The position numbers were made by a program, and so were the translations under genes. A model generated the notes under the pieces. That model was not told where the DNA came from. It saw nothing but the letters and a program-made list of their open reading frames with translations, and did not search any database. A stretch of DNA of 64,000 bases from a virus: IMG/VR virus record IMGVR_UViG_3300043429_000249, positions 1-64,000 of that record; one strand, given 5' to 3'. Of the stretch, positions 27,701-51,027 are shown piece after piece; the stretch's first letter is position 1; each line of letters begins with the position of its first letter.

Positions 27701-30700
27701 CCCTTGTCTTCCCGCTGCGCAAACTCACCATTGGCGATGGCTTCCATGACGGCATTTGCATCGCGCAGGTTTTGACTAAAGAAAAAGTCACGGATTGAGT
27801 TCAGGAACTTCTGGATGCGGGTGAAGACGTTCTTCTTGATCGGCAGCCTCTGCCGTTCTTTCATCCATGCACGGAACAGTTCCGCTACACGCTCTTCTTC
27901 ACGGGTCGCTCTGCTTTCTTTACTATAGGCAACGCGCACAACCGACCGAAGGGCGACGTCCTTATTGGCAACGCGCACAAGTGCCTGCCATTCTTGGTCC
28001 GTAAAGAAGCCGTGGTCCTTAAGGTAATGGATAAGCTCATGATACATGACGCCTTCCATTTCCGCCTGATTGCCCATAGCCATGCGGATGATGCTGTCCA
28101 TGGGGTTATAGCTACCGCCCGCCTGACCCCCATTAAGGATGTCCTTAACGATGATGTTGATATCATTGAAGCCAAGTTTAGACAGGGCTTCACGTAGCTT
28201 GTTCCGTGCTTCCTTAACACTCTCCGCTTTTTCTTCGTAGGCTGCACGCTCTTCGGGCGTCATTAGCGACCGCATAGCCTGTTCAGCGTAGCGGTCCTTA
28301 GCCTTTTCCAGTTCTTCTTGGATGCGTTCGGCGGAGGCATTCTTCTGTTCCGCCGCGTTAGTCAGCAACTTGTAAGCCTGTTCGCTGATCTGCGGATCGC
28401 GTTCGCCATCTTCATTGTACATGGCGTTTTCGATATCTTCCAAGACCGCATCATACGGATCAGCCTGCGCCTTCCGCGCACCTTCTTCCTGCTGGGCTAG
28501 GAGGATTTCCCGAATGTTGTTTGCTACTTCATCACGCTGATTTTCGCGCTGATTATCCAGCATTTCATCAAGCGCGGCCATGGCTTCGTCCAGCTTTTCA
28601 GCATTGGGGACGTCTTCCAGACGGGAGTTGATTTCAGCTACATCGTCTTCGTCGATAAGCCCATCTCGCTGATATTGCTTCATGAGCTTGCGAAGTTCTT
28701 TCATGTTCTCCGCGTTATATACCTCTTGGGTAGCATCATCGTACCGTGCGTCATGCTCCTGCATGTCCGGGTGTTCGTCGATTAGGTCTTCGACATCGAC
28801 TTCCTCTTCCGGCGCAGGCTCTTCTTCAAACTGCGGCAGCGTGACGTCTTCTTCGACGGCAGGCTCTCCTTCTGCTACCGGCGCTTCTTCGGCTACCGGC
28901 GCTTCTTCGGCTACCGGCGCTTCTTCGGCTACCGGCGCTTCTTCGGCTACCGGCGCGGGTTGTGCAGCAGCTTCGCGTTCAGCCTGACGCTGGCCCGCTT
29001 CGGGAATCATGCCCTCGATTTCAGCCGCGTCACCGCGCAGGATAGCCATCTCCTGTTCGTCCGGCCCCACCCAGCCGTTCTTGTCGGCCAGTTCGATGAA
29101 GGCTTTGTACTTGTCGCGGATCGCGGGGTTATTGGCGATACGGTTGAAGGCCGTTTGGCGTTTGGTGTCTTGTTCCTGTTGCTGCTGCGCTGCTGCTGCC
29201 TCTTCAGCATCCAAACGCTTCTGGTATTCCCCTTCAGGACCGAACACACTTTCGGCAGCTTCAAAACCATAAGCACGGCTGGCTTCTTCACGGGTCATCG
29301 GTTCCAAACCGCGCCGTTTAAGGTCAGCGTTGATCTTATTGATCTTGTTCTTACCCTTGATTGCCGGGTCGTACAGCGTCGGCTCAATGATATTCATGCG
29401 GGCAACGGCAAGTTCGTTGTCGCGCAGTTCATTCACCTGCCCTGCGGTTGTCTCAAGGTCTGACTGCTGCCGCATCCAGTCACGGATAGTCGCGGTTTCT
29501 TCTGCGTTCGGCCTAAGGCCGTGCATGAACATCAGGTTTTCAAACGCACCAAGGTGGTCGGTAACCGGGGCTTGTAGCGTCTGCTGCAACAGGTCCATAC
29601 GCAGTTCGCGTTCAGCCTGCGCCTCCTGCGCATTTTGATTGATCTCATCTACTACGCTAGTAGGTATAGGAGGAGTAGCAGTAGTCGTTGTTTGCGCGGG
29701 TTGTCCGGGGGCTGGAGCCGTCCCAGCGGGAGGCGCAGTCATAAAGTCCAAGAACTCGTCATGAACTTTCCGGGCTTCATCCAGCACCAGCATGCGGGCG
29801 ATCTTGGTCTCTTCCGGCAGCTTGGCACGGTTCAGGGCACGGGTCTGCCCCTTAAGTAAGGTATCCGCCGCCTCGGTATCACCCGATGCCATCGCGCTCG
29901 TCAAACGACGGTTGATGCTGTTGATGTATGTATTCAGCCCTTCATCAGGCTGCGTGTTACCCAATGACTGGGCCAGACGTTCGCCAATAGCCTGTCGGGA
30001 AAAGGTTTCCGGGATATTCAGGTTACGAGCAGTTTCATCCTGCACGCGCCGCGCTTCGATATCGGCAATGGGCATACGACGCAGCATGCCCTGCTCGTTA
30101 CGGACAACTACATTGCCTTCGGCATCGGGGGCACCGATAACATCAATGCGCTCACGCACAGTCTGCGTCGGATCATCCTGCTTCGCAGTCGCAATCGTGT
30201 AGGATGCGAGTGGAGGCTGGGCAGCTTGCTCCATAGCCTGTTGGCGGTTCTTTGCCGCGCGTTCGCCAAGGATGTTGGAAACCTCAAAGCCGCCACGGAC
30301 CGTGGCACCGACGGCGCCGCCAAGCAGTGCGTTTTCAGTCACGCCTTCCATAGCAGCTTGCTGCGGGTTGTACGCCTGCTGTTCCAGCACGTTCTGTGCG
30401 AGCTGCGTGCCACCTTCCTGCAACGCCTCCGGCGCAAAGCCTCGACCCACCAGACGGCCAGCCGCGGTAGCATCCAATGACGCAGCCGTACGGGCCAGCG
30501 TCTGCTTAACTGTTTCACGTGAAACACGCCCTGCGGTCAGGTCGGTAAGGAGGCTATTAATTCGTTGCTGCGTCGCAGTGCGTGCAGCGGGAGGAAGGGC
30601 ATCCACCATACGCCCTATGGGCAGCAGTTCAGTCAGTCCAATGGCACCGCCACCGAGCTGCACAAACTTACGTGTTGTCGGGTCAACCTTTTGGCCGGTT

Positions 30701-39203: not shown

Positions 39204-40478
39204 TTATGACTTCATGATGTAGCAAAGCGCATAGTACGGAGGCAGGTTTGCGTTGGTAGCGCTTGACCCTTCCGTGCTGATACCGACAGAAATACCCGTG
39301 GTCGCAGACGACGTCGATCCGTTTTGAGCGGTGGAGTTAACACCCAACTGCGTCTGCACTGTACCACCGGAGGAAGTTGAACCCGGTAAGTTGTGCGTGT
39401 GGCCCGGATCAGTAACGGTAGCAGTATGGGTGTGGCTGACCAGTGTGGCATTTGCAGAACCGCCCGTCGAACCGACAGCGTAAGTAGACCCCGCACCGAC
39501 CACGAACCGGTCACGGAGGTCGGGAGTGCTATTTGTACCGTCGCAGAGTACCCAGCCAGCCGGAATGGAAGCAGCGGAACCAGACCACAGCAAGATAACG
39601 CCGGATGGCACTGCACTGATCGCAACGTCGCCAGACCCAAGCAGAGAGGTACCGTTGACCGTTTTGATATTCGTACCCGAAACGAGCGTAGCCTGCGCAC
39701 CCAGTGCCGTGCGGGTGTCAGCCGCACTAAGAGCGGAGACGGTGTTGTCTGCGTTGAACCGGGGGAACGTGACCGCGCTCGGGTTGGTGATCGTAAAGAG
39801 ATTACCGCCAAGGGTCGTAGCGCCAAGGTTCGTACGCGCACCCGAAGCAGTGTTAGCCCCCGTGCCGCCATCGGAGATGGCAAGGTCCGTAATACCTGAA
39901 ATTGACCCGCTGGTGATCGTGATATTGCTGATATTGCCGCCAGTAATCGTCACATCGTTCGCGTTCTGGACAGCCAGTGTACCCAGACCAAGATTTGTCC
40001 GTGCACCCGAAGCGGTGTTGGCCCCAGTGCCACCTTGAGCGGTAGCAAGTGCCGTGCCCAGCGTCAGCGATGTCAGGTGGTTAGTTACGTCTACGACGTT
40101 AGTACCATCCGTATAGACCCACATGGTCTTACCAGCGGGGACGGTGATACCCGAGCCAGCCGCAGTCTTAACCACGATGCTGTCAGCGCAGTCGTTCTGA
40201 ACAATATAGGGTTTTTCGATTGACGGTACGACAAGGTTACGGGTCGAACCCCCTGTAGTCCCGGTGCAACGCAGACGCACGTTGCGGGCAGTCTGGGATG
40301 AGTTGGTGTCCGTCAAAGACAGCGTGACGTTGCCGCTGGCAAAGGTGACATCAGCCGAGCCGATAATGGCTTCTTCGATGGCGGTGCCAAGGTTAAGGTT
40401 CGTCACCGTGCCCCATGTCGTCGAGTTCTCACCCGTCGTCATAAGCTGGATTTTAAGGGTGCTGTACGTACTAGCCAT
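39204..40478 (-). CDS. Tail fibre with phage collar (gp12-like) domain
   Basis: 424 residues. Repeats GGTGANTASGARTNLGLGTL at about 142 and 205 mark a fibre shaft. The C-terminal PSGVILLWSGSAASIPAGWV, CDGTNSTPDLRDRFVVGAG and NLPPYYALCYIMK are the Phage_Collar signature of T4 gp12-like proteins. SHTHTATVTDPGHTHN gives the paired HxH motifs that coordinate metal in the receptor-binding tip. Receptor-binding tail fibre. Confidence 0.9.
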   Translation of the reverse strand: MASTYSTLKIQLMTTGENSTTWGTVTNLNLGTAIEEAIIGSADVTFASGNVTLSLTDTNSSQTARNVRLRCTGTTGGSTRNLVVPSIEKPYIVQNDCADSIVVKTAAGSGITVPAGKTMWVYTDGTNVVDVTNHLTSLTLGTALATAQGGTGANTASGARTNLGLGTLAVQNANDVTITGGNISNITITSGSISGITDLAISDGGTGANTASGARTNLGATTLGGNLFTITNPSAVTFPRFNADNTVSALSAADTRTALGAQATLVSGTNIKTVNGTSLLGSGDVAISAVPSGVILLWSGSAASIPAGWVLCDGTNSTPDLRDRFVVGAGSTYAVGSTGGSANATLVSHTHTATVTDPGHTHNLPGSTSSGGTVQTQLGVNSTAQNGSTSSATTGISVGISTEGSSATNANLPPYYALCYIMKS

Positions 40479-40487
40479 CTTCGTTCC

Positions 40488-43400
40488 TTACGTTGGGATT
40501 TCTACCCAAACAACAGTATTGCCGTCCACTACCTGTACCCAGTTCCCACTTTGGGAATCGTTAATCGTTTGCCAGTTCGGCGTCTGAGTGTCGTCTATAC
40601 CAGACCATCCAGCACTTTGCGAGTCATTAACACTCTGCCAGTCCGGTGTCTGGACATCGGTAACTTCCTGCCAGTTCGGTGTCTGAGCGTCGTTAATTGT
40701 CGCCCATACGCCAGCCTGTGCGTCATCGACTGGTACCCACATCGGGACCTGTGCATCGTTGATCGCCTGCCAGTTCGGTGTCTGTGCGTCGTCAACCCCG
40801 TTCCAGTTCGCTGTCTGGGCATCGTTGACAGGAATCCAGTTCGGGTCCTGTGCCGGAGTAATCGGGTTCCACTTGGGGATTTCAACAGTACCGACCTGCC
40901 CAGCAGCGGACACACCGAGAACGGTGAGGATAGCCCTGCCGCTAACAGTAACGGTGCCGACAGACGCCGCAGCCGAAACCCCGGAGACAACGACCATAGT
41001 GCCGGTATCAGCAGTGGCCGTACCAATCGTACCCGTAGCGGCTACGCCAGTAACCTCAACCTGTTGGCCAATTACAACGTCTACGGTGCCGACGGTACCC
41101 GTAGCGGAAACACCTGTGACATCTACATCTGCACGAGCAGCTGTATCGACGGTACCAACCAGACCATCTGCGGCTACGCCCGTTACGCTGACGTTGGTAT
41201 TATTCCGAACTTCGACTTCAAGCCCAGAGAACGGAACAACGGAGAAGCCAGAGAAGCCCAGCAGAGCTGTGTTGTCTACGTTCCCAACGGCCTCGCTGAC
41301 GTCACCGATCTCCCCAGTGGCGGAGACACCAACAAGTTCGGTGTTGGCTTTAGCTTCGACCGTAGCAGTACCGACCGAGCCAGTAGCCGATACGCCGGTT
41401 ACGTAGTATGAAGAGCGAGTCGTTACATCGCCTACAAAACCATTGGCTTCTACACCGGTAACCGTGAAATTCGTATCGGTGGTTACATCAGCGGTGCCGA
41501 CAAGGCCGTTGGCCGAAACACCAGTGACTGAAACGTTAATCCGCTGGGGTGTCTCGACCCCAGAGAAGGGCACGGATGCGAAGGGCGAGAAGCCCAACAC
41601 CATCGTGTTATCGACGTTCCCGACGGCTTCGGTAACGTCACCGATCTCCCCAGTGGCGGAGACACCGGAGACAAACACCGTCTCGACGTTGGTGGTAGCA
41701 GTGCCAACAAGACCGCTAGCCGAAACACCGGTAACTTCGACGTTGGTGTTATTACGAACCGATTCTTCTACGCCCGCAAACGGAACAGCGGAGAAGGGCG
41801 AGAAGCCCAACACCATCGTATTATCAATGTTGCCGACAGCCTCGGTTACATCTCCGATCTGCCCGGTGCCTACGACGCCTGTGAGTGTGGTGTTGGCTTT
41901 AGCTGAGGTATCTACTGTACCGACTGCACCAGAAGCAGAGACCCCAGTAACTGCAACCTGCCTGCCGAGCGCGACAAAGACGGAACCAACAAGCCCCGAA
42001 GCGGAGACACCAGTTACGAGGACGCTGATGCCCGTACCAACCTGAACGGTACCAAGTAGCCCGTTAGCAACCACGCCGGTCAGAGTGGTATTGGCTTTAC
42101 CAGTTTCGGTGGTGTCCCCGATAGCACCAGTGGCAGCAACGCCAGTTACGCTTACATTGGTATTATCCCGCTGTTTGGTCTCGACCCCAGAGAAGGGCAC
42201 GGATGCAAAGGGCGAGAAGCCCAGCACCATGGTGTTATCAACGTTCCCAACGGCTTCGCTGACATCACCAGTTTGCCCAGTGCCTTCAACACCTGTGGGC
42301 GTAGTGTTAGCTTGGCCGGAAGTAGCTACAGTACCGACGGCACCAGAGGCCGATACGCCAGTGACGTAGTAACCAAAACTGAACGATACCGTGCCAATCG
42401 CACCAGTAGCGAAAACGCCGGTTACACTGGTACTTGCGCCAATACCGACCTGAACCGTGCCGACTGATCCATTTGCAAAGACGCCGTTGACTTCGGTATT
42501 GGCTTTAGCGGAAATAGCGACCGTGCCGACTGCACCTGTGGCGGATACGCCAGTTACGCTTACATTGGTATTATCCCGCTGTTTGGTTTCAACGCCGGAG
42601 AAGGGCACAGCTGCGAAGGGCGAGAAGCCCAGCACCATTGTGTTATCAACGTTCCCAACGGCTTCGGTAACGTCACCGATTTGTCCGGTGCCTTCAACAC
42701 CTGTGGGCGTAGTGTTAGCCTTAGCAGAGATGGTTACGGTACCAACTGCACCAGAGGCCGATACGCCAGTGACGTAGTAGCTAAATCTGAACGCTACAGT
42801 GCCAATTGCACCGGTAGCGGAAACACCGGTTACGGTTGTGTTGCTGCCAATACCAACCTGAACGGTACCTACTGACCCACTGGCGAAAACACCGCTGACC
42901 TCGGTATTGGCCTTGCCTGCGATAGCGACCGTACCGACAGTGCCTGTGGCGGATACACCCGTGACGTTGGTGTTAGTATTGTTGCGTTGGCGCTCTTCCA
43001 CACCGGAGAAGGGCACAGCTGCGAAGGGCGAGAAGCCCAACACCATGGTGTTATCAACGTTCCCAACGGCTTCGCTGACGTCACCGATCTGCCCAGTGCC
43101 TACTACACCCGTTAGCGTAGTGTTAGCTTTGGCAGCGACGGTTACGGTACCAACTGCACCCGACCCAGAGACGCCAGTGACGTAGTAGGACGAGCGGAAA
43201 GTTACCGTGCCAGTAAAGCCGGTGGCAGTGACACCATTTACGGTTGTGTTGGCCTTGCCCGATACGGCTACAGTACCGACCAACCCTGAAGCAGATACAC
43301 CCGTAAGAGTGGTGTTAGCTTTAGCGGAAATAGCGACCGTGCCAACTGCACCGGAAGCAGCTACACCCGTGACGTTGGTATTAGTATTGTTGCGTTGGCG

Positions 43401-45821
43401 CTCTTCCACACCGGAGAACGGAACCGCTGAGAAGGGCGAGAAGCCCAACACCATGGTGTTGTCGATATTACCGACGGCCTCGGTTACGTCTCCGATTTGC
43501 CCGGTGCCCGCTACCCCAGTGGCGGTGGTGTTAGCTTTGGCAGCGATGGTTACGGTGCCGACTGCACCCGACGCAGATACGCCAGTGACGTAGTAAGCAG
43601 ACCGGGTAGCTACCGTACCGACTGCACCTGTGGCCGAAACACCTGTGACGTAGTAGGACGAGCGGAAAGTTACCGTGCCAGTAGAGCCGGTGGCAGTGAC
43701 ACCAGTAACAGCGACGTTGGCTTTGCCTGTCTCAGTAGTATCCCCGACAGAACCAACAGCCGAAACACCCGTGACGGAGTAGCTAAACCTAAACGATACC
43801 GTGCCGACTGCACCAGAAGCCGAAACACCTGTAAGGGCGGTATTAGCCTTGGCGGCGACAGCTACTGTACCAACTGCACCCGACGCAGATACGCCAGTGA
43901 CGTAGTAAGCAGACCGGGTAGCTACTGTGCCAACTGCCCCGGTGCCGGAAACCCCGGTAACGGCGACATTAGCTTTAGCGACGACCGTCTCGGCACCGAT
44001 GCTGCCCGTACCTGCGACGCCAGTTACGGTAGTGTTAGCCTTAGCTACGACCGTCTCGGCACCAATGGTGCCCGTAGCGGAAACGCCCGTTACGCTGACG
44101 TTGGTGTTATCTCGCTGTTTGGTCTCTACACCGGAGAAGGGCACGGATGCGAAGGGCGAAAAGCCCAGCACCATCGTGTTATCGACGTTTCCGACAGCCT
44201 CACCGACGTCACCGATTTGCCCGGTGCCTACCACACCAGTTACACTTACGTTGGCTTTAGCAACGACCGTTTCGGCACCAGTGGTGCCTGTAGCGGACAC
44301 GCCCGTGAGGGTGGCATTAGCCTTAGCTACGACCGTCTCGGCACCGGTGGTGCCTGTGGCGGATACGCCTGTAAGGGTGGTATTAGCTTTAGCTACGACC
44401 GTCTCGGCACCGGTGGTGCCTGTAGCGGACACGCCGGTTACGGTGACATTAGCCTTAGCTACGACTGTTTCGGCACCGGTGGTGCCTGTAGCGGCTACAC
44501 CGGTTACGGCTGTGCGGGTGTTAAGGTATGCGGTAACCGTACCGACAGACCCAGTGGCCGATACGCCAGTGACGCTAACGGTAGCATTAGTTCTGGCGAC
44601 TACGGTAACCGTACCGGTGGTGCCTGTAGCAGATACACCCGTAAGAGTGGTGTTAGCCTTAGCTACGACCGTCTCGGCACCGGTGGTGCCTGTGGCGGAT
44701 ACACCAGTTACGCTGACGTTGGTGTTATTGCGTGGTGCAACCTCGACGCCGGAGAAGGGTACAGCTGCAAAGGGCGAGAAGCCCAACACCATGGTGTTAT
44801 CAACGTTCCCGACAGCCTCGGTTACATCCCCGATCTGCCCAGTAGCAGAGACACCTGTAGCGGTTACGTTAGCTCTAGCTACGACCGTCTCGGCACCGGT
44901 GGTGCCTGTAGCGGATACGCCCGTGAGGGTGACGTTGGCTTTAGCAACGACCGTCTCGGCACCGGTGGTGCCTGTGGCAGATACACCTGTGAGGGTTGTG
45001 TTAGCCTTAGCTACGACCGTCTCGGCACCAATGGTACCTGTGGCAGAGACACCCGTAAGGGTTGCGTTAGCTTTAGCTACGACCGTCTCGGCACCAATGG
45101 TGCCTGTAGCTGAAACCCCGGTTACAGCTGTGCTGGTGTTAAGGTATACAGTAACCGTACCAACCGAACCGGTAGCGGAAACGCCGGTAACGGTAACATT
45201 AGCCTTAGCTGCGACCGTCTCAGCACCAATGGTGCCCGTAGCGGAGACACCAGTAACAGTGGTGTTAGCCTTGGCGACTATAGTCTCTGTGCCGATGGAC
45301 CCAGTAGCGAAAACACCAGTAAGGGTGACGTTGGCTTTAGCAACGACCGTTTCGGCACCAGTGGTGCCTGTAGCGGACACGCCCGTGAGGGTGGCATTAG
45401 CCTTAGCAACGACTGTTTCGGCACCGGTGGTGCCTGTGGCGGATACGCCTGTAAGGGTGACGTTAGCCTTAGCTACGACCGTCTCGGCACCAATGGTGCC
45501 TGTGGCGGATACGCCTGTAAGGGTGACGTTAGCCTTGGCGACTATAGTCGCTGTACCAATGGACCCGGTAGCGGACACGCCCGTGGCGTTGACGGAGACA
45601 GAGACAGCCCCGGCAGTGATGACCTCAACACCAGAAAACGGTACCGCGGAGAAGGGCGAGAAGCCCAACACCATGGTATTATCGACATTACCGACCTGCG
45701 TGGTAACAGTGCCGACAGAACCTGTAGCAGATACGCCAGTAGCGTTAACCGATACCGATACCGATCCACCGGCTTGGAGGTCAGCTGCGGCAGGTAGGAG
45801 TGGTTGGTATAACCAACTCAT
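40488..45821 (-). CDS. 1777-residue repetitive fibre-like protein
   Basis: Start MSWLYQPLLPAAADLQAGG, then about 60 repeats (estimated from length) of a 22-residue unit such as TGVSATGTTGAETVVAKAN, interrupted ten times by a cassette containing VDNTMVLGFSPF and VPFSGVE. The last about 125 residues change to a third repeat, W-x(3)-NDAQTPN, and end VVWVEIPT. No enzyme motif. Length and beta-type repeats suggest an extended beta-solenoid fibre or baseplate appendage. The antisense long frames in this gene are by-products of the repeats. Confidence 0.85.
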   Translation of the reverse strand: MSWLYQPLLPAAADLQAGGSVSVSVNATGVSATGSVGTVTTQVGNVDNTMVLGFSPFSAVPFSGVEVITAGAVSVSVNATGVSATGSIGTATIVAKANVTLTGVSATGTIGAETVVAKANVTLTGVSATGTTGAETVVAKANATLTGVSATGTTGAETVVAKANVTLTGVFATGSIGTETIVAKANTTVTGVSATGTIGAETVAAKANVTVTGVSATGSVGTVTVYLNTSTAVTGVSATGTIGAETVVAKANATLTGVSATGTIGAETVVAKANTTLTGVSATGTTGAETVVAKANVTLTGVSATGTTGAETVVARANVTATGVSATGQIGDVTEAVGNVDNTMVLGFSPFAAVPFSGVEVAPRNNTNVSVTGVSATGTTGAETVVAKANTTLTGVSATGTTGTVTVVARTNATVSVTGVSATGSVGTVTAYLNTRTAVTGVAATGTTGAETVVAKANVTVTGVSATGTTGAETVVAKANTTLTGVSATGTTGAETVVAKANATLTGVSATGTTGAETVVAKANVSVTGVVGTGQIGDVGEAVGNVDNTMVLGFSPFASVPFSGVETKQRDNTNVSVTGVSATGTIGAETVVAKANTTVTGVAGTGSIGAETVVAKANVAVTGVSGTGAVGTVATRSAYYVTGVSASGAVGTVAVAAKANTALTGVSASGAVGTVSFRFSYSVTGVSAVGSVGDTTETGKANVAVTGVTATGSTGTVTFRSSYYVTGVSATGAVGTVATRSAYYVTGVSASGAVGTVTIAAKANTTATGVAGTGQIGDVTEAVGNIDNTMVLGFSPFSAVPFSGVEERQRNNTNTNVTGVAASGAVGTVAISAKANTTLTGVSASGLVGTVAVSGKANTTVNGVTATGFTGTVTFRSSYYVTGVSGSGAVGTVTVAAKANTTLTGVVGTGQIGDVSEAVGNVDNTMVLGFSPFAAVPFSGVEERQRNNTNTNVTGVSATGTVGTVAIAGKANTEVSGVFASGSVGTVQVGIGSNTTVTGVSATGAIGTVAFRFSYYVTGVSASGAVGTVTISAKANTTPTGVEGTGQIGDVTEAVGNVDNTMVLGFSPFAAVPFSGVETKQRDNTNVSVTGVSATGAVGTVAISAKANTEVNGVFANGSVGTVQVGIGASTSVTGVFATGAIGTVSFSFGYYVTGVSASGAVGTVATSGQANTTPTGVEGTGQTGDVSEAVGNVDNTMVLGFSPFASVPFSGVETKQRDNTNVSVTGVAATGAIGDTTETGKANTTLTGVVANGLLGTVQVGTGISVLVTGVSASGLVGSVFVALGRQVAVTGVSASGAVGTVDTSAKANTTLTGVVGTGQIGDVTEAVGNIDNTMVLGFSPFSAVPFAGVEESVRNNTNVEVTGVSASGLVGTATTNVETVFVSGVSATGEIGDVTEAVGNVDNTMVLGFSPFASVPFSGVETPQRINVSVTGVSANGLVGTADVTTDTNFTVTGVEANGFVGDVTTRSSYYVTGVSATGSVGTATVEAKANTELVGVSATGEIGDVSEAVGNVDNTALLGFSGFSVVPFSGLEVEVRNNTNVSVTGVAADGLVGTVDTAARADVDVTGVSATGTVGTVDVVIGQQVEVTGVAATGTIGTATADTGTMVVVSGVSAAASVGTVTVSGRAILTVLGVSAAGQVGTVEIPKWNPITPAQDPNWIPVNDAQTANWNGVDDAQTPNWQAINDAQVPMWVPVDDAQAGVWATINDAQTPNWQEVTDVQTPDWQSVNDSQSAGWSGIDDTQTPNWQTINDSQSGNWVQVVDGNTVVWVEIPT
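40876..45780. repeat. 66-bp tandem repeat array coding the long fibre
   Basis: The DNA of the fibre gene repeats with a 66-bp period (22 codons), with nearly identical neighbouring units around 44200-45560, for example GCTACGACCGTCTCGGCACC many times. It invites expansion or contraction by recombination, and assembly of this region may be unreliable. Confidence 0.88.
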
Positions 45822-45825
45822 TTAT

Positions 45826-46170
45826 TTATCCGACTTTACGGATGGACCAAGAGATCGACCTGTCAGTGCCTGTAATCTTGTCCATGGTGACGTCCCAACC
45901 CAACATCAACACAAGAGTCGGGGTGACGAAGGGGCTTGACTGCGCGCCGTCTAGCACCGCTGTGTAGACATTTAGCTGCGAGCCGCCCGAAGTGACCTTC
46001 TCCTTGATTTTAATCTCGTACTCGTCACCAGCAGCCATGGTCGAGACATCAATAAATACCTGATACACGCCGACGTTTGTTACCGAGGCAAGCGTGGTGG
46101 AGCTGTTTACGAGGGAGTACTCGGTGGTTCCGATGGTCGCGGTACCCGTATAAGCAACTGTAATTGCCAT
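45826..46170 (-). CDS. Structural protein, 114 residues
   Basis: MAITVAYTGTATIGTTEYSL, then VFIDVSTMAAGDEYEIKIKE and FVTPTLVLMLGWDVTMDKIT: a small all-beta protein of the kind found beside fibre genes in environmental phages. Upstream partner of the repeat protein in transcription, 4 bases apart. Role unassigned. Confidence 0.65.
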   Translation of the reverse strand: MAITVAYTGTATIGTTEYSLVNSSTTLASVTNVGVYQVFIDVSTMAAGDEYEIKIKEKVTSGGSQLNVYTAVLDGAQSSPFVTPTLVLMLGWDVTMDKITGTDRSISWSIRKVG

Positions 46171-48917: not shown

Positions 48918-49391
48918 TTAGGCGATACGGATGATCGCCGCTGCGTTGGTCGCCGCTGGGAAGATGATGGTGAAATCACCCAACGTCGAAGTACGATCCG
49001 AACCGAAGTCCAGAGCGCAGACCGCAGCATTGGTCAGCGTGGTGTTCGCCGTGCCGTTAGCCGAGGGAGTGTTGTTGTAGATCAGAGCGCCACGAGCCGT
49101 GATGTTAGCGTTCGTCCACGTCGTGTCGGCAAAGTCGGTGAAACCCGTACCCGCAGACGCCGAGGTGTTCGAAGCCGTCACGCCTTGGTTAACCAGCGTG
49201 TTGCCACCAGCGGTGTAGTTCGTGCCCGTCACTTCGCTCGTGGTATTATACGAGGTCGAGTTAGCGTCGATGTTCGACGCCGACGTGAACAGAGCGATCT
49301 TGAACGTGTCGCCACCGGTATTACGGAAATCGTGTACGGCCAGCATAATCTCGGCCTTAAAGCTGGTGCACATTGCTTGGGTAATCGCCAT
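48918..49391 (-). CDS. Tail/virion structural protein, 157 residues
   Basis: FKAEIMLAVHDFRNTGGDTF and KIALFTSASNIDANST start a conserved phage protein type, followed by NYTAGGNTLVNQGVTA and AALIYNN-like segments (here ARGALIYNNT). The beta-rich composition and the neighbours suggest a virion protein; exact place unknown. Confidence 0.75.
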   Translation of the reverse strand: MAITQAMCTSFKAEIMLAVHDFRNTGGDTFKIALFTSASNIDANSTSYNTTSEVTGTNYTAGGNTLVNQGVTASNTSASAGTGFTDFADTTWTNANITARGALIYNNTPSANGTANTTLTNAAVCALDFGSDRTSTLGDFTIIFPAATNAAAIIRIA

Positions 49392-50634: not shown

Positions 50635-51027
50635 TTAGTTCTCCGTCTCGACTGTTACAGTCCCTACGCTTCCTGTTGCTAATAGCGTATTTGGAAGCCC
50701 AGATAAACCCAAAGGATTATTTAGCCCTACGGGGTTCCATCCCCACTGAATAATGCGACTACCATCGCTTGGGTTTCCGTCCACATTAAGCCCTGCTTGG
50801 TAGTACGTCGTATCAGGCCGCGGGTTACGCAACGCCTGAGGATCATCGACGGGGTACATACCCAACTGGAGCTGCGGCTGATCCGGTTCCCAGCATGTGG
50901 GGCACACGAGGATATTGACGTTCTTCGTCTTGATGACGAGCCGTCGAAGCTGCTTGAGCTTATAGCGAAACCCGCAGCGATCACACTGCGAAATTGCCCA
51001 CTTACCAGAGGCAAACCTGTTCGGCAC
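50635..51027 (-). CDS. Zinc-ribbon phage protein with fibre-repeat-like end
   Basis: 130 residues. Two CxxC pairs, CDRCGFRYKLKQLRR and CPTCWEPDQPQLQLG, give a zinc ribbon, then DPQALRNPRPD, a motif common in phage proteins beside adaptor genes. The last residues ATGSVGTVTVETEN copy the 22-residue repeat of the 1777-residue fibre protein (ATGSVGTVTV), which is unexpected for this family. Confidence 0.75.
   Translation of the reverse strand: MPNRFASGKWAISQCDRCGFRYKLKQLRRLVIKTKNVNILVCPTCWEPDQPQLQLGMYPVDDPQALRNPRPDTTYYQAGLNVDGNPSDGSRIIQWGWNPVGLNNPLGLSGLPNTLLATGSVGTVTVETEN

Follow-up and report, generated by a model that had tools for sequence, protein, structure and literature searches.

The closest described members of the protein family reported here are short. 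Gp68 of the isolate HTVC023P has 226 aa, gp57 of the isolate CRP-603 has 223 aa and WJZ48131 of the metagenome-assembled DSL-LC04 has 376 aa. HTVC023P gp68 and WJZ48131 combine a GF or WG motif with TGV units and a tryptophan (W) array, and in most relatives a fibre gene lies downstream; CRP-603 gp57 was placed in the family by its repeats and lacks the W array. The protein analysed here shares these features with gp68 and WJZ48131, but carries 62 units and ten GF motifs. No account of the family was found in the literature searched, and the available text of PMC10149686 and PMC10611076 does not discuss these repeat proteins. Beta-solenoids of the phage tailspike and FHA type belong to the same predicted fold class as the present protein, which differs from them in having no PDB sequence match and no detected enzyme domain. 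A further protein for comparison is gp76 of the Caulobacter phage phiCbK (gp076 gene, L111:9426-17825), which is likewise very long, expanded by duplication and furnished with G.[IV]GT[IV] repeats. According to the available part of PMC3556154 it is the most probable candidate for the head filament of this phage, ~200 nm in length, and has glycine-rich regions and a lectin domain, whereas the present protein has no Pfam domain at cut-off. In the part available of a 2025 paper on phage 7-7-1, head-fibre proteins are still called unknown (PMC12796354).

The present protein is encoded in a stretch of 64,000 nucleotides (the window), positions 1 to 64,000 of the IMG/VR record IMGVR_UViG_3300043429_000249. 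The record has a total of 68,023 bases and carries, among its other genes, those for a large terminase, a portal, a major head protein, a tail collar fibre and a phrog_3287 virion protein. The virus infects bacteria.

Repeat anatomy and divergence of the 1777-residue protein

The repeat gene (40488..45821, minus strand) is a single ORF with an ATG start, located 4 bp past the stop of the upstream gene. The initial annotation had described its product as a 1777-residue protein made of three kinds of repeat, namely about 60 TGVSATG units of 22 residues, ten dispersed cassettes and a terminal W/NDAQTPN repeat, and each of these elements was recovered. An N-terminal leader (residues 1-41, MSWLYQPLLPA..., 45699..45821, minus) is also conserved in the closest differing relative, L005 (see below). 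The TGVSATG array (residues ~26-1645, 40887..45746, minus) comprises 62 TGV-anchored units, mostly of 22 residues, while 500 residue shuffles gave a mean of 5.0 TGV motifs and a maximum of 13. Self-identity at lag 22 was 0.350, against a shuffle maximum of 0.139. The units are spaced by 22 residues in 41 cases, by 20 in 8 and by 50 in 8; spacings of 21, 24, 48 and 52 occur once each. A spacing of 50 residues corresponds to one unit plus a 28-residue cassette.

The ten GFSPF/VPFSG cassettes are located, all on the minus strand, at 45624..45695, 44742..44813, 44124..44195, 43404..43475, 42996..43067, 42588..42659, 42180..42251, 41766..41837, 41553..41624 and 41217..41288. They are spaced by 294, 206, 240, 136, 136, 136, 138, 71 and 112 residues, and Tandem Repeats Finder (TRF) reported a higher-order block with a period of 408 bp in 3.6 copies. 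The first cassette is found at residue 43, whereas in the short relatives the motif lies at the protein start. In those of the GF type the cassette motif opens the protein in the form M-[LF]-GF-x-P. The cassettes had been proposed to act as branch or interaction points along a fibre. Rather than as branch points, they are, judged from the sequences compared, better described as internal copies of the motif that opens the N-termini of the shorter relatives. The C-terminal W/NDAQTPN array (40491..40871, minus) contains 12 tryptophans, each spaced from the next by exactly 11 residues across all 11 gaps. This period is exactly half of the 22-residue TGV unit.

The 66-bp DNA units had been taken to be nearly identical, which proved to be incorrect. 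The 41 units of 22 residues have a mean identity of 60% (median 58%), and 1 of 820 pairs is at least 95% identical. Agreement between units is 69% and 74% at the first two codon positions and 37% at the third. This divergence of the DNA units, with third positions so little alike, indicates that the repetition is held at the protein level and that most units are old.

The closest relative that differs from the window protein, L005 (IMG/VR 3300017754_001058), is a 1909-aa ORF that is 59% identical and also has ten cassettes. An assembly artefact, which the initial annotation had named as a refutation of its reading, is unlikely, since a separate contig encodes such an ORF. Over the stretch from cassette 5 to the end, dN was 0.25 and dS 1.64 between the two proteins (dN/dS ~0.15), a ratio that marks the repeat protein as being under purifying selection. 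Cassette spacings in L005 are 356, 180, 180, 246, 138, 138, 138, 71 and 112 residues. The last five agree with those of the window protein within two residues and the first four disagree, so that the layout appears fixed towards the C-terminus and variable towards the N-terminus. A second contig, L006, is 100% identical to the window over 10146 bases and may stem from the same population; its end falls inside the array and it therefore supports only the first 715 residues. An open frame of 670 aa (43927-45939, plus) runs antisense to the repeat gene. Among frames of at least 250 aa no counterpart was found at the matching place in L005, and it is therefore probably a by-product of the codon usage of the repeats. 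Elsewhere in the window an 18-bp tandem repeat (28848-28956) occurs within a 2231-aa gene, the C-terminal part of which matches LPD38 (large polyvalent protein associated domain).

It had further been suggested that the array may change rapidly in length. Such a change was seen in a related lineage, the L010-L022 group, in which one 22-residue unit is present in 2, 3 or 4 copies (3, 7 and 1 contigs, n=11), counts in which, if these are short-read assemblies, collapse of perfect repeats is possible in some contigs. The complete comparable 66-bp copies in this group are identical, and the contigs share long tracts with L011 at 90.7 to 100% identity. Sequence comparison thus supports a changing unit number in this lineage, while the units of the window itself appear old and diverged.

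The TGVSATG family and its gene neighbourhood

When IMG/VR was scanned with a repeat block of 200 aa taken from L005, 593 viral contig stretches matched, of which 517 were found by tblastn to encode relatives; the best 80 of these 517 were taken as the locus set. With the same query 202 stretches were obtained from bacterial and archaeal genomes, and 2 were confirmed, both in Chloroflexi MAGs; the family is thus nearly absent from cellular genomes, which speaks for a phage protein. A Dehalococcoidia MAG (L087, CP070693.1) has a fibre-type gene directly downstream of the repeat gene and would represent a prophage or a misplaced phage contig. Proteins with cassettes were sought in a separate scan; of its 107 stretches 23 were confirmed, at 21 loci. 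Searches of phage records with tblastn yielded few relatives, perhaps because of low-complexity filtering.

The family plan consists of an N-terminal GF...PF or GWG...WG motif, TGV units (about 7 to 68 per relative by pattern count), a W array with a period of 11 residues and a short end. It was found in most of the best 80 loci, in HTVC023P gp68 and in DSL-LC04. The window protein conforms to it, with its 62 TGV units, a C-terminal W array of 11-residue period, ten GF motifs and a GENSGTWG-type gene immediately downstream. The GF motif recurs inside the array in the window protein, in L005, in the L009-L022 group and in L107 and L108; copies of the WG motif occur inside the array of L026, L027 and L109. 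As a putative phage fibre built from repeats the protein falls into a known category, and its unusual trait is the large number of internal copies of the N-terminal motif. Going by the sequences found, it is one of the largest members of the family. In two partial relatives (L026:2-4681 and L027:1-3648) the WG cassettes are dispersed and the chain is interrupted by globular insertions resembling lectin domains by eye, and the L108 contig encodes two different proteins of the family (3-2162 and 7992-9671), one of them with five GF-type motifs.

A family HMM was built from 92 unit pairs of 18 relatives, with the window protein left out, and run on 824 sequences including shuffled controls. It matched the window protein (E 1.7e-300), DSL-LC04 (E 3.5e-54), CRP-603 gp57 (E 5.8e-19) and HTVC023P gp68 (E 2.3e-17), as well as the repeats of gp53 of the isolate CRP-901 (E 1.8e-12). 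Pfam, PHROG and NCBIfam contain no model that matches the window array at cut-off, and a PDB search with the whole protein sequence gave no match at E up to 1. Nine of ten relatives had no PHROG match below E 0.09; CRP-901 gp53 matches a PHROG through its N-terminal part. The assertion that no protein of this architecture had been described consequently holds for named families, while unnamed relatives are common. Taken from sequence searches, the picture is of a family that is widespread among aquatic phages but has no name. A tblastn search of phages with the W array returned 97 records, and nearly all of the 40 listed were tape-measure proteins; at ~25% identity these matches are taken to reflect a common spacing of tryptophans and not homology.

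Directly downstream of the repeat gene in the window lies a tail fibre gene (39204..40478, minus) with a TGENSTTWG N-terminal domain and a collar region, for which matches to tail collar fibre families were obtained, among them phrog_1800 (tail collar fiber protein, E 8.7e-27). The genes upstream match virion structural and tail families. Of the 76 loci in the set whose sequence extended far enough, 66 have a GENSGTWG-type fibre gene immediately downstream, or 32 of 36 if each distinct type is counted once; among the other frames of these loci the pattern occurs in 11 of 1019. The pattern was widened after inspection of missed neighbours, as the first version was too strict (42/76), and is therefore tuned on these loci. 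L007 and L008 were left out of the neighbour counts because their contigs are already represented by L005 and L006; near-identical contigs are numerous among the remaining 80 loci, hence the additional count by distinct type. In the 10 loci in which the pattern missed a fibre neighbour, L005 is included, where the gene is located ~1.6 kb away. Since many phages carry relatives beside a tail-fibre gene, the window protein is probably a virion fibre or stalk that changes in length.

Further upstream in the window, a phrog_28581 protein (50635..51027, minus) ends in one TGV unit and a QWGWNP motif, so that two genes of the structural region have a module in common. In CRP-901 a protein of the same phrog_28581 family carries several TGV units and a WG motif.

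Predicted fold of the array

Two stretches of the window protein were modelled with AlphaFold2 (AF2), with relatives as the alignment. In model 1 (residues 1472-1777, mean pLDDT 62.2) the repeats reached pLDDT values of 78-90, cassette 10 ~44-55 and the W array 29-53, the latter without secondary structure. Values in model 2 (residues 970-1188, mean 57.4) were 55-69 for the repeats and 32-46 for cassette 6, and the five models of this job spanned 38.8 to 57.4. The repeats are beta-rich and solenoid-like in both models, at an overall confidence that is only moderate. The best solved matches are both beta-solenoids, an FHA domain (1rwr) for model 1 (Z 12.1, rmsd 2.6, 137 aligned) and an endopolygalacturonase (7e56) for model 2 (Z 12.5, rmsd 3.3, 186 aligned). 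Foldseek gave a best E of 0.19 for model 1 against the PDB. In BFVD model 1 matched uncharacterised phage proteins, with E values from 7e-6 upwards, and model 2 had no match below E 0.16. Triple beta-spiral fibres are absent from the fold-match lists, an absence that is no test of them. Beta-solenoids rise by 0.48 nm per coil, and if the modelled fold is correct the 62 units would span ~30 nm plus the cassettes.

Prediction of the structure of a block, proposed in the initial annotation as a check, thus returned beta-solenoid repeats together with low-confidence cassettes and W array, from a method that over-calls this fold in repeats. For perfect repeats AF2 gives confident but unrealistic beta-solenoids, as stated in the available part of PMC11795689. 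It could accordingly be argued that the array is mostly a disordered or soluble spacer or decoy and that the solenoid is an artefact of modelling, as the poor pLDDT values of the cassettes and of the W array and the range of the job 2 models would also allow. Neighbouring units of the modelled C-terminal block are only 32-55% identical, however, and are thus not perfect repeats. In addition, hydrophobic residues alternate along the unit at positions 2, 5, 7, 9, 11, 14, 16, 18, 20 and 22, presumed to be buried, and in a comparison of 307 distinct units these positions are charged in 0-9%, while position 19 is charged in 62%; glycine occupies positions 4, 9 and 12 in 100, 96 and 98%. K and R are scarce in the repeat. 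Both the divergence of neighbouring units and this two-residue alternation count against a pure artefact, and a disordered spacer is considered rather improbable.

Curli repeats have ~22 residues and a Q/N ladder as their motif. The similar period of the TGV unit raises the idea that the array forms a curli-like amyloid fibre produced by the infected cell. Model 2 has the CsgA fibril 8enq as one of its poorer matches (Z 6.9, rmsd 7.8, 92 aligned), and pelagiphages of the HTVC023P type carry CsgA/B, CsgF and CsgG (PMC9599517, in the part available). Yet no curlin-repeat (PF07012) match was found in the virus record or in the repeat protein, the TGV repeat lacks the Q/N ladder and the gene sits among virion genes, which together make a curli-like fibre very improbable.

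Probable place of the protein in the virion

The repeat gene product is probably a fibrous structural virion protein of the tail-fibre module, with a beta-solenoid-like TGV rod and with cassettes and W array as contacts. The fibre role already suggested in the initial annotation fits the tail-collar neighbour, the synteny and the beta-rich models, from which presence in the virion may be inferred. The literature searched yielded neither proteomic nor imaging data on virions of this phage or of a clear relative.

A position on the head has to be weighed against this. The protein might be a capsid filament of the kind proposed for phiCbK gp76; such an appendage, long and flexible, would capture a structure of the host ahead of tail docking. 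In phiCbK, gp76 is encoded directly downstream of a phrog_644 gene, gp75, whose product is 42% identical over 119 aa to the window's copy, and in 38 of 68 relatives the repeat gene likewise lies directly behind phrog_644 (within 6 kb in 50 of 68). The C-terminal part of gp76 holds most of its 13 G.[IV]GT[IV] motifs, some of them 22-24 residues apart; 1000 local shuffles gave a mean of 0.17 and a maximum of 3. Alignment of gp76 with the family profile by hhalign extended over several units (E 3.5e-4), and with two homologues added, making three sequences, the score was 38.6, against at most 22.0 for 60 shuffles and 25.0 for the reversed sequence. On the other hand, the hhalign probability for gp76 was 37%, below 50%, and bias-corrected hmmsearch found no family match in gp76. 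Gp76 was not detected in virions by mass spectrometry, according to the available part of PMC3556154. In the window the phrog_644 gene (AMCTSFK; 48918..49391, minus) is located ~3.1 kb upstream of the repeat gene, separated from it by an amidase gene and others, and the nearer neighbour is the tail fibre gene. Phrog_644 moreover occurs also in a tail gene cluster, in GodonK. The support for a capsid filament of the gp76 type is suggestive, the likeness to gp76 being a lead, and such a filament is regarded as unlikely.

Two other proteins, considered because they looked similar or were encoded near phrog_644, were not supported as relatives: GodonK gp96 (hhalign E 0.24, motif count within the shuffle range) and MiniFlayer gp8 (hhalign E 0.77). 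Inspection of the genes behind phrog_644 in MJing1 and CRP-603 showed that the CRP-603 fibre is not a relative, while the next gene is.

A broader speculation, held with little confidence, is that the protein forms the shaft of a long filament on the virion, perhaps attached to the capsid, of an unrecognised class found in freshwater and marine phages and, distantly, in phiCbK-like phages. The spacings of its docking patches would be kept by selection in the C-terminal part and be free in the N-terminal part, and its reach would be tuned by gain and loss of 66-bp units.

For a fibrous protein of the tail-fibre module, the preferred explanation, the following mechanism can be envisaged. The TGV units would build up a long rod resembling a beta-solenoid, in which every 22-residue unit contributes two short strands and the glycines make the turns. 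The aromatic GFSPF/PFSG motif may serve as a docking or interaction patch, of which there are ten here and one, at the N-terminus, in the short relatives, and the flexible C-terminal tryptophan array may provide a second contact region. The protein presumably grew by duplication of single 66-bp units and of whole blocks of units plus cassette; duplication of the 408-bp block would have raised the number of contact points, and the spacing between them would be tuned as units are gained or lost.

A common phage protein family has thus been missed by the models of Pfam, PHROG and NCBIfam, despite adjoining fibre genes, on which the choice of the attacked cell commonly depends. If the protein is a virion filament, unit gain and loss would offer a simple route to an altered reach with an unchanged binding tip, and cultured phages, HTVC023P and CRP-603 among them, would permit a test of the composition of head filaments.
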